A DNA stretch of 64,000 nucleotides from Enterobacter ludwigii (GTDB lineage: Bacteria; Pseudomonadota; Gammaproteobacteria; Enterobacterales; Enterobacteriaceae): the NCBI RefSeq assembly GCF_001750725.1, contig NZ_CP017279.1, positions 558,001 to 622,000 of the forward strand, written 5' to 3'. Positions 20 to 32,213 of this stretch are shown here, in pieces. The translations under genes and the position numbers were made by a program. The notes beneath the pieces were generated by a model. It was not told the DNA's origin. It saw only the letters and a list, made by a program, of their open reading frames with translations, and did not search any database. Each line of letters opens with the position of its first letter. Position 1 is the first letter of the stretch.

Positions 20-92
20 CATTTGCCGTCCGTTTTGCTATGTTATGCAAAAGAAAGGCAATAATGTTAAGCCAGTAAAACGAGAAGCCATA

Positions 93-1136
93 ATGAGCGT
101 GATGTTTGATCCAGAAGCCGCAATCTATCCCTTCCCGCCAAAGCCTGTCCCGCTGAGTCAGGATGAGAAGCAGTTTTACCGTGAGAAGATCAAACGACTT
201 CTCAAAGAGCGAGATGCAGTGATGGTTGCACATTACTACACCGACCCGGAAATCCAGCAACTGGCGGAAGAGACCGGGGGCTGCATCTCTGACTCTCTGG
301 AGATGGCACGCTTTGGTGCCAGACATCCTGCTTCCACGTTACTGGTCGCAGGCGTTCGCTTTATGGGGGAAACCGCAAAGATTCTCAGCCCTGAAAAAAC
401 CATTCTGATGCCAACGCTACATGCGGAGTGTTCACTCGACCTCGGCTGTCCGATTGATGCGTTCTCGGCCTTCTGCGACGCCCATCCGGACCGTACCGTG
501 GTGGTCTATGCCAATACCTCTGCCGCAGTGAAAGCGCGGGCAGACTGGGTCGTGACGTCAAGCATCGCCGTTGAACTGATTGAGCATCTGGACAGCCTGG
601 GCGAGAAAATCATCTGGGCGCCTGACCGCCATCTCGGCAATTACGTGCAGAAGCAGACCGGCGCTGACGTGCTTTGCTGGCAGGGTGCCTGTATTGTTCA
701 TGATGAATTTAAGACGCAGGCGCTCTCGCGCATGAAGGCGCTTTACCCGCACGCAGCGATCCTTGTTCACCCGGAATCACCGCAGTCCATTGTCGACATG
801 GCGGATGCCGTGGGATCCACAAGCCAGCTTATCAATGCTGCCAGGACGCTGCCGCACAAGCAGCTCATCGTGGCAACCGACCGCGGTATCTTCTATAAGA
901 TGCAGCAGGCCGTGCCTGAGAAAGAGCTGCTTGAAGCACCAACGGCGGGCGAGGGGGCGACGTGTCGTAGCTGCGCGCACTGCCCGTGGATGGCGATGAA
1001 CGGCCTGAAAGCTATTGCTGAGGGGCTGGAGAAAGGCGGAGCAGCGCATGAAATCCATGTGGATGCTGCTCTGCGTGAAGGTGCGTTAATTCCGCTTAAC
1101 CGCATGCTGGATTTTGCGGCTACACTACGTACTTAA
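93..1136 (+). CDS. nadA: Quinolinate synthase NadA
   Basis: NadA condenses iminoaspartate with dihydroxyacetone phosphate to give quinolinate, the second step of de novo NAD synthesis. The 347-residue product matches the enteric family in length and sequence. It carries the [4Fe-4S] cysteines in AECSLDLGC, in WQGAC and in the C-terminal CRSCAHC, and the family motif [14 protein letters not shown]. The reading frame extends upstream to 45, but the start at 93 (MSVMFDP) is chosen because homologues begin there; the extra residues look like translated leader. It is first in an operon with pnuC, 22 bp downstream, and lies behind a NadR box. Confidence 0.97.
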
Positions 1137-30158: not shown

Positions 30159-30852
30159 ACGTTATTTTGTCACCGGAACAGATACCGAAGTGGGCAAGAC
30201 GGTTGCCAGCTCAGCGCTGCTGCAGGCGGCGCGCATGCAGGGAAAAACCACCGCCGGATATAAACCTGTCGCCTCCGGCAGCGAGATGACGGCGCACGGG
30301 TTACGCAATACCGACGCGCTGGCGCTCCAGCGCAACAGCACGCTTGAACTTGCCTATTCAGCGGTGAATCCGTACACCTTTGCCGAGCCCACCTCACCGC
30401 ATATTATCAGCGCCGATGAAGGTCGCCCGATTGATTTTGCCGTGCTTTCTGCCGGGTTACGCGCCCTTGAACGCCAGGCTGACTGGGTACTGGTGGAGGG
30501 CGCCGGTGGCTGGTTTACGCCACTTTCGGCGGACCAGACCTTTGCTGACTGGGTGCAAATCGAGCAGCTGTCGGTAATTCTGGTGGTAGGGGTCAAACTC
30601 GGCTGTATCAACCATGCGATGCTGACTGCCCAGGCCGTTCAGCAGGCCGGGCTGCGCCTGGCCGGCTGGATAGCCAACGACGTGGTTGCGCCGGGCAGGC
30701 GACATCAGGAGTATCTGGCAACGCTGAAGCGGGTGATTCCTGCGCCGTTTCTTGGGGAGATCCCGTGGCTGGCTGACACTGCCGGGTGCGCTGAAACCGG
30801 GCATTACCTCGATCTCAGCGTCTTGCCTCCAGCGACATCCAGTGTGCGATAA
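30151..30852 (+). CDS. bioD: Dethiobiotin synthetase BioD
   Basis: BioD closes the ureido ring of dethiobiotin with CO2 and ATP. The 233-residue protein starts [19 protein letters not shown] after a GTG at 30151, with the P-loop GTDTEVGKT (about 9-17) and [12 protein letters not shown] (about 111). The GTG start is chosen by homology and coupling to bioC; an ATG at 30136 would add five residues. The C-terminal codons overlap by 38 bp the end of the convergent ABC ATPase gene. Confidence 0.94.
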
Positions 30853-31537
30853 GCTCGTCGTCCAGCTCGTTAACGTGGCCCTGGGCCACGTTACGCCCGC
30901 GATACAGCATGCAAAAGCGCTCCGCGACCCGGCGGATAAACGACAGCTGCTGCTCAGCTAACAACACCGTCATTCCCAGTTCCCGGTTTAACCGCACCAG
31001 CAGCTGGCTCAGCTTCTGGGCGAAGCTGTGGCCCGCGCCATGCATCGGTTCATCCAGAATCAGCATCCGCGGACGGATGACCAGCGCATTGGCCAGCGCC
31101 AGCTGATACTGGTCGTCTGGCGAAAGCGTGTTGGCCCGGGTTTGTCGCAGCGCATAGAGTTCCGGAAAGAGGTCGTAAACGTCACTTTTCGCTTCAGGGT
31201 CTGGTTTCCCTGTCGCGCGCATGGCGATATGCAGATTTTCATCAATGGTTAACTGGGAGAAAATCCGCCTGTCCTGCGGGACATAGCCTATTCCCGGGCC
31301 AGCGAAAGGTTCTGGCGTCTGGCTAAGCAAATCTCGCGGCGGTGCACCGGCTTCGTGCCAGATGATGGTGCCGCTGTCGACAGGCACTTTCCCGGCGATG
31401 CAATTCATCAGGGTCGTTTTGCCCATCCCCGGCAGGCCAACAACGCCTGTACACATGCCTTTGGGAAAATCTAAATCCACGTTCCATAGCGTATGTTGGC
31501 TTCCGTAAAACTGGTTAACTGCACGCAGACTCAACAT
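30815..31537 (-). CDS. Orphan ABC ATPase of the UrtE/LivF type
   Basis: This 240-residue protein is a single ABC ATPase domain close to the UrtE/LivF branch, which energises urea or branched amino acid importers. Walker A is GLPGMGKTT (about 34-42), the Q-loop region is YVPQDRRIFSQLTI, and Walker B is RMLILDEPMHG. The signature reads LSPDDQYQLALANAL, where family members have LSGGQ, so the motif that contacts ATP is degenerate. No permease or binding protein lies nearby. AGGAGAG before the start suggests it is translated. It runs convergent to bioD with a 38-bp tail overlap and is not at this place in E. coli. It could be a relic of a urea-type transporter, or serve a distant partner. Confidence 0.8.
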   Translation of the reverse strand: MLSLRAVNQFYGSQHTLWNVDLDFPKGMCTGVVGLPGMGKTTLMNCIAGKVPVDSGTIIWHEAGAPPRDLLSQTPEPFAGPGIGYVPQDRRIFSQLTIDENLHIAMRATGKPDPEAKSDVYDLFPELYALRQTRANTLSPDDQYQLALANALVIRPRMLILDEPMHGAGHSFAQKLSQLLVRLNRELGMTVLLAEQQLSFIRRVAERFCMLYRGRNVAQGHVNELDDELIAHWMSLEARR

Positions 31538-31864
31538 CTTTCTCTCCTTAAAAATCTGTGTGGATGAGGCTCATTGTGGGATGTGCAAAACTCCTGCCAG
31601 AAACCCTAAATTGATTAAAAAAGAGGCTTTTTTAGGAATTTGTCCTGGATAAGCGGTGTGTGATTACCCCCTTTGCACATCCGCGGTGCCGGACGTGATG
31701 AGTTGTGGTGCAGGGTTAAAATGGTGGAAATGTGAGCAAGATCGCATCGGTTGGTTATGAATGACACAACTGTTTATCAGCAAAAAATAGCTATAAAAAA
31801 TTTTTGCTGCCGTTTCGTGGGAAAAGTCGGGAATTTGCTGAGCGGCGGTCTGCACGGGCTGGAA

Positions 31865-31905
31865 GCAGTTATCCACTATTCCTGTGGATAACCATGTGCA
31901 TTAGA
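31865..31905. other. DARS1-like DnaA-box cluster
   Basis: TTATCCACT (31869-31877, one mismatch) and TGTGGATAA (31883-31891, perfect box on the minus strand) face each other across five bases. TGTGCATTA (31895-31903) is a weaker third box. In E. coli the DnaA-reactivating sequence DARS1 lies between bioD and uvrB and has a core of three DnaA boxes; place and form agree. Further one-mismatch boxes are at 31559-31567 and 32092-32100. Activity is inferred. Confidence 0.75.
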
Positions 31906-32193
31906 GTTAGAAAACACGCGATAAGCGAGAGAAGACGCGGGTTACGACCAAATTGGCGCGAAACGCGGCTTTAGAAAATATCGCTTAATATTTAATTGGT
32001 TAGATAAAAGCAATTGCCGTAATGAAAGTGTCACCTGTTGCCATAAAACTATCATTACCTGGCTTGACAAATGTTAAAAAAGAAAAAGTTCTGGGGATAA
32101 CCCGTCCTGACTGGTGTTTTATGTTGTCACGGTCCAAATTTTGACCACTATCGCGCTAATCACCCTGCCGGTACTCTAAATATCCTGACATGC

Positions 32194-32213
32194 TACTGGT
32201 TTTTCATCCAGTG
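32194..32213 (+). promoter_or_regulatory. LexA box of uvrB
   Basis: TACTG, ten bases, CAGTG contains the required CTG-N10-CAG (32196-32211). It lies about 80 bp before the uvrB start, as in E. coli, where LexA blocks the SOS promoter of uvrB. Confidence 0.9.

Follow-up and report, generated by a model that had tools for sequence, protein, structure and literature searches.

Is the cluster of DnaA boxes upstream of uvrB in this Enterobacter ludwigii chromosome the counterpart of Escherichia coli DARS1, the site at which ADP-DnaA is turned back into ATP-DnaA, and how much of the surrounding DNA belongs to it? We considered this in a 64-kb stretch of the chromosome (referred to here as the window), which we compared with the E. 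coli locus and with related loci from the same and from other families. By sequence comparison, the window site is a DARS1 orthologue, much as published work would lead one to expect; what was not expected is an IHF consensus found ~120 bp from box I in relatives.

A DnaA box core with the DARS1 layout

The sequence-only reading of the window had described an opposed pair of DnaA boxes, five bases apart at 31869-31891, with a weak third box next to it. The coordinates, strands and spacing of the pair are as it described, and the third box proved to be a one-mismatch sequence on the - strand, three bases past box II:

31869..31877, + strand: DnaA box I, TTATCCACT
31883..31891, - strand: DnaA box II, TTATCCACA, unchanged in 95/95 family orthologues
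31895..31903, - strand: DnaA box III, TAATGCACA, with one mismatch

The spacers, five bases between boxes I and II and three between boxes II and III, produce a 9-5-9-3-9 layout with box I opposed, which is the core arrangement of DARS1. Allowing boxes I and III up to one mismatch and box II none, a scan finds this layout a single time in the window and never in 20 mononucleotide-shuffled windows. When the whole genome was scanned for the box I/II pair with up to two mismatches, the window site and two places in the DARS2 region near 4.59 Mb were the only ones found.

Among single boxes, exact TTWTNCACA is about as frequent in the window as chance predicts (5 versus 3.4 expected), and TTATNCACA is enriched, both across the window at up to one mismatch (51 versus 33.6 expected, with 0/100 shuffles reaching 51, an enrichment not confined to the DARS1 site) and in its exact form genome-wide (104 sites versus 46 for a reversed control pattern). 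This abundance speaks for a reading in which the boxes merely titrate DnaA, or are scattered boxes without special function. We nonetheless regard such a reading as extremely improbable, as the 9-5-9-3-9 geometry is fixed in 95/95 family orthologues, almost all of which show hardly any net change in length as far as about +146 (judged from an ungapped profile), and the layout was not recovered in any of the 20 shuffles. The case for a DARS1 site stands on the box arrangement and its conservation.

Alignment with an E. coli locus (L001) upheld the proposed DARS1 counterpart in place, box layout and flank: the intergenic region aligns, and a ~70-bp block spanning the three boxes and their flank is almost identical. 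The site is located upstream of uvrB, between the bio operon and uvrB, with an ATPase gene between bioD and the site, and the homologous DARS1 place is present in 5374/5426 E. coli genomes. It should be noted that passages of PMC5742627 describe E. coli DARS1 as a 101-bp site made up of the three-box core and a ~50-bp stimulatory region, and also give the box spacing as identical in DARS1 and DARS2 and the positions as conserved among related bacteria; part of PMC4585315 reports the three DARS1 boxes as conserved across 59 E. coli genomes. A candidate for the stimulatory region follows box III in the window, where it is recognised by its conservation.

DARS2, which is located between rppH and mutH and has IHF and Fis sites, does not describe the window site, which adjoins uvrB. 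The genome has its own DARS2 core apart from the window site (G000:C1:4590247-4590269), consisting of TTATTCACC, five bases, TGTGGATAT, three bases and TGTGAAGAA, i.e. the same 9-5-9-3-9 layout; this lies between genes matching mutH and rppH, as in E. coli, and its box I ends in C. We also noted a DARS2-like core, TTATTCACTTTTTCTGTGGATAG, in a 1.6-Mb genome without a DARS1 match (G119:C2:14506-14528), and several congeners have TTATCCACAG..CTGTGGATAA pairs that form perfect palindromes of 21-24 bp, at 3-kb loci (L006, L017, L020, L025-L027) containing no uvrB.

Conservation across the family and beyond

We surveyed 149 genomes of the host's family (148 genera) with a 104-base query, which matched 95 of them (94/148 genera; L112, a second weak match in genome G129, was excluded from the 95). 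The 54 genomes without a match are all ≤2.4 Mb and the 95 with one are all ≥2.7 Mb, a split which is a property of this sample and need not hold for symbionts generally, since an Arsenophonus endosymbiont contig (L180, named as such) retains the DARS1 element. The loci from other families numbered 54 distinct ones after the removal of L193, a duplicate of L134, and named loci were assigned as outside the family from their names.

A box arrangement not kept in relatives had been named beforehand as grounds for giving up the DARS1 claim, and the arrangement is kept in all 95 family orthologues: in every core TTATCCAC with a final T or C is separated by five bases from TGTGGATAA, which a three-base spacer separates from box III, and this spacing is fixed. 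The ninth base of box I is T in 72 of these, C in 23 and never A, and in the 54 other-family loci it is T in 36, C in 17 and G in 1, a tally in which many loci were collected with patterns excluding A and from which some listed cores with A at this position are absent. A box I that falls short of the consensus in this way may ease the departure of apo-DnaA. Box III has one mismatch in 92 family orthologues and two in 3, and is weak in other families (at least two mismatches in 35/54 loci).

A conserved element reaching to +146

Offsets given here are counted from the first base of box I, and refer to an ungapped profile of the 95 family orthologues which stays structured through +146, beyond the published 101 bp. 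Judged from this profile, the conserved unit runs from 31869 to about 32014 (~146 bp), plus one further conserved box at 32092, and beyond box III it includes the following features:

31904..31943, + strand: conserved, putatively stimulatory region containing the two blocks listed next, the predicted counterpart (role by homology) of the ~50-bp regulatory part of E. coli DARS1 described in passages of PMC5742627
+39..+46, + strand: block TTAGAAAA of the 95-orthologue profile
+55..+75, + strand: block AAGCGAGA..ACGCGG of the 95-orthologue profile
31990..32002 (+122..+134), + strand: degenerate IHF-type site, ATTTAATTGGTTA, with two mismatches to WATCARNNNNTTR and the key C absent
32005..32014 (+137..+146), + strand: conserved TAAAAGCAAT, family consensus TAAAA[TG]CAA[GT], which closes the conserved block
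32092..32100 (+224), - strand: outer one-mismatch DnaA box, TTATCCCCA

Additional conserved columns are found in the same profile at +85..87 (TTG) and +101..104. We note that the TAAAA[TG]CAA motif directly after the IHF-type site is nearly invariant in the 95 family genomes.

Two one-mismatch boxes further out had also been assigned to the cluster, and one of these belongs to it. The box at 32092-32100 is conserved, with a TTATCCCCA-type box falling within +191..+270 in 83/95 family genomes and at +224 in E. coli; the other, TCATCCACA at 31559-31567, is found in 0/19 other genus-level loci. Another box, TTTTGCACA at 31582-31590, recurs exactly and in roughly the same place in 6/19 of these loci, and on this comparison the 31559 and 31582 boxes are both outside the conserved unit.

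Conservation to +146 and to the box at +224 might also be expected if the block beyond box III were a leader RNA or a small reading frame of the transcript from uvrBp3, the distal uvrB promoter, and a TG after column +26 in 95/95 orthologues (seen by eye) means that an NTG codon could open a short frame. We consider this very unlikely. RNAalifold, run on 93/95 sequences (without L082 and L103, which have indels), pairs just the box I/II palindrome, and within the AAGC/GCTT repeat pairing at the variable positions is limited to 66% for 56-74 and 53% for 57-73; Rfam gave no match for the conserved stretch, and a frame from +26 would have variable columns at all codon positions (again by eye).

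An IHF-type site near +122 in relatives

With its two mismatches and absent C, the window falls outside the group of DARS1 elements having an IHF-type site within one mismatch near +122; a C in the motif is described in part of PMC8407004 as highly conserved in all IHF sites predicted there. Across the family, the consensus WATCARNNNNTTR is found at +122..134 exactly in 31/95 genomes and with at most one mismatch in 73/95, where shuffles gave a mean of 0.4 and a maximum of 3. The motif was then counted in two sets of loci from other families. In the first set, 25/28 uvrB-linked cores have it at +118..124 within one mismatch, where the null gave a mean of 0.56 and a maximum of 3 and control windows reached ≤3/28. 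The second set, fetched later as a check, has it in 15/27 uvrB-linked loci (null mean 0.52, maximum 4) and is uneven, with 5/5 in family f12 and 0/5 in family f21 (L311, L314, L316, L317, L319). When the two sets were pooled and the duplicate removed, 39/54 loci had the motif at ≤1 mismatch with starts from +119 to +123, and no window elsewhere in the scanned range exceeded 3/54; L200 and L206 end before the IHF-type site and were excluded from the count. Cores in other contexts have the motif in 1/9 cases, and those linked to mutH/rppH in 0/4; in these four, all from one family, a one-mismatch site starts at +116 or +117.

The mean pairwise identity of the 39 motif-bearing loci is 34% at 49-25 bases before the site and 64% within it, the latter being inflated as matching the consensus was in part what chose its 13 columns; the columns at -10 and -9, which hold A/T only, lie outside this selection. 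Among named loci, exact matches occur in Klebsiella pneumoniae, Serratia proteamaculans, Edwardsiella anguillarum and Proteus cibi, as well as in two from beyond the family, Paraglaciecola marina and Oceanimonas marisflavi. Two mismatches are found in both Shewanella loci (L194, L201), as in the E. coli site TTTTAACTGGTTA, which has lost the C as in the window, and two Salmonella loci and 3/4 measured Citrobacter loci have two mismatches but retain CAR....TTA. In the host genus, 7/20 loci (the window included in the 20) are within one mismatch. This suggests that many relatives carry a putative IHF site, apparently lost from E. coli and from this bacterium. On a UvrB tree with weak support (89 rows), the state of the site requires 17 changes, so that it comes and goes often.

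IHF regulates many promoters, and the element is usually found upstream of uvrB, both of which count for a reading in which the conserved +122 motif is an IHF site for uvrB transcription and unrelated to DnaA exchange. We find this doubtful, if still deserving some weight. The motif keeps almost the same distance from the DnaA core (+122 among family genomes and +119 to +123 in 39/54 others) while the distance between the element and uvrB varies from ~330 to >2000 bp, and two loci without a nearby uvrB (L097, L110) keep the motif at one mismatch. Furthermore, the DARS2 of E. coli, exemplified by strain A37, has two IHF-type matches with one mismatch each, a reverse one at +94..106 and a forward one at +110..122, separated by three bases as in the published description of IBS1-2, with more distant matches at +347 and +436. 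The DARS2 in the window's own genome has a forward match at +96..108, not +110. With the forward DARS2 match as reference, the DARS1 motif is 12-26 bp more distal in E. coli A37 and the window's genome, and 2-7 bp more distal for the four mutH/rppH-linked loci.

Passages of PMC4245941 and PMC8682772 state that in E. coli IHF is needed by DARS2 and not by DARS1, which fits the decayed site in E. coli DARS1, and the IHF-independent DARS1 of E. coli may therefore be derived. None of the literature matches listed joins DARS1 with an IHF-binding site, in a search whose coverage left out most subscription papers. We lean, by a small degree, towards the view that DARS1 was ancestrally a joint DnaA-IHF machine like DARS2, in which IHF bending would activate ADP release and couple this to the cell cycle across much of the order. 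Against this IHF reading count the absence of the motif in family f21, the lower share in the second set than in the first, the +96 start of the forward match in the window genome's own DARS2 and the partial selection of the 13 site columns. The site would then have been lost or weakened in E. coli, Salmonella, most of the examined Citrobacter loci and much of the host genus, with the IHF-independent DARS1 as a derived exception.

Neighbouring genes and the distal uvrB promoter

The genes and promoter element on either side of the DnaA boxes are as follows:

30815-31537, - strand: solitary ABC-type ATPase gene, between bioD and DARS1
32194..32213, + strand: putative LexA-type box of the uvrB proximal promoter, TACTGGTTTTTCATCCAGTG, by comparison with the E. 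coli box in part of PMC6015884
32289..34304, + strand: uvrB, the downstream neighbour of the element

In the fetched 3 kb, uvrB is found downstream and on the same strand in 89/95 family loci, and it is downstream of 55 cores in other families (28 + 27). The E. coli promoter uvrBp3 overlaps DARS1 and is repressed via the middle box with LexA competing, according to passages of PMC6015884. Both points would favour the boxes being chiefly the operator of uvrBp3, where DnaA would repress uvrB in competition with LexA, with replication control secondary, and we judge this to be unlikely. The whole element is found beside a Grx4 gene in L097 and L110 (two genera), where no uvrB was found in the fetched 3 kb and yet the boxes, inner spacing and IHF-type motif are kept, and DARS2 shares the core layout without uvrB. 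An Alteromonadaceae locus (L167) has a MATE gene between the element and uvrB, which also tells against an operator, though both genes may be one operon. In L058, L074, L104 and L113 uvrB was likewise not found in the fetched 3 kb. Control of uvrBp3 by DnaA and LexA probably coexists with DARS1 function, by analogy with E. coli.

The sequence-only reading had further pictured the ATPase gene as an insertion that shifts bioD away from the boxes. The gene does lie between bioD and the boxes, but it is not an insertion special to this genome, as an ATPase gene is found upstream and in the opposite orientation in 54/95 family genomes; a recent insertion is ruled out by this shared place and orientation. 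The protein is UrtE-like yet scores well under the UrtE cut-off (198.9 vs 285.8 bits), has LSPDDQ at the place expected for the LSGGQ signature (by eye), and no other transporter gene adjoins its gene in the window. The presence of the ATPase gene requires 16 changes on the weakly supported UvrB tree (89 rows), and the ATPase and BioD proteins have 91 and 90% identity to those of Enterobacter mori, and 82 and 86% to those of Enterobacter cloacae, respectively.

Chromosome position of DARS1 and DARS2

In the assembly containing the window (G000), oriC is at 3205327, dif at 1527800, DARS1 at 589869 and DARS2 at 4590247, giving arms of 3.18 and 1.68 Mb with DARS1 and DARS2 both on the longer one, and the usual dosage argument may not hold there. 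Among 12 congeners, G017 is similar to G000 and the other 11 have DARS1 and DARS2 on opposite arms, at 0.28-0.32 and 0.18-0.22 of chromosome length, respectively (a 14th genome, G004, gave no match to oriC and does not figure in the position table). GC skew (20 samples) agrees with the oriC and dif positions in G000, an agreement which an inversion across oriC would preserve whether it is real or a misassembly at repeats.

Proposed mechanism and significance

We are highly confident in the explanation as a whole, that the site is a DARS1 orthologue where DnaA would be recharged on opposed boxes and where an ancestral IHF site would have decayed. Weighing against it are the four loci with no uvrB in the fetched 3 kb (L058, L074, L104, L113), the shared chromosome arm of DARS1 and DARS2 in G000 and the weak box III of other families. 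ADP-DnaA would bind box I and boxes II-III in opposed orientation, with the head-to-head contact of AAA+ domains loosening ADP, and apo-DnaA would then depart and reload with abundant ATP, with recharged DnaA supporting initiation at oriC on time. In this explanation the boxes, their spacing and location, their long conservation and the separate DARS2 in the same genome are observations made here, to which ADP release, expected to need no added factors, and its effect on initiation, which loss of the site would delay, would be added by analogy with work on E. coli. The ancestral element would have had an IHF site ~120 bp from box I, a position not far from that of the DARS2 IHF sites, and the host lineage, like E. 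coli, would have let this site decay, leaving an element that would work without IHF.

This comparison defines a longer conserved unit of ~146 bp, and predicts that in many relatives DARS1 receives an input from IHF. Such an input, if it exists, would recast the timing of DnaA recharging outside E. coli, and would explain the differing IHF dependence of the two E. coli DARS sites.

Comparison with known systems

Three E. coli systems can be compared with the window site. The DnaA/LexA-controlled promoter uvrBp3 has overlapping sequence and the same downstream gene, a likeness known here from sequence alone, but unlike this promoter the element also occurs with no uvrB nearby (L097, L110). DARS2 (rppH-mutH, 455 bp) has the same core layout as the window, and its IHF-type matches fall at a similar distance to the DARS1 motif found in relatives; in contrast, it is at another locus with TTATTCACC as box I, and Fis sites belong to DARS2, whereas DARS1 has no Fis consensus conserved at a fixed place (no offset had ≥25/95 exact matches). 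Finally, DARS1 itself (bioD-uvrB intergenic, 101 bp) shares with the window the three-box orientation and spacing, the place upstream of uvrB, the near-identical flank and a degenerate IHF-type site at +122. The window differs from it in having an ABC-type ATPase gene between bioD and the site and one base changed in box III, and conservation among relatives continues to +146, at least 45 bp past any 101-bp stretch containing box I.
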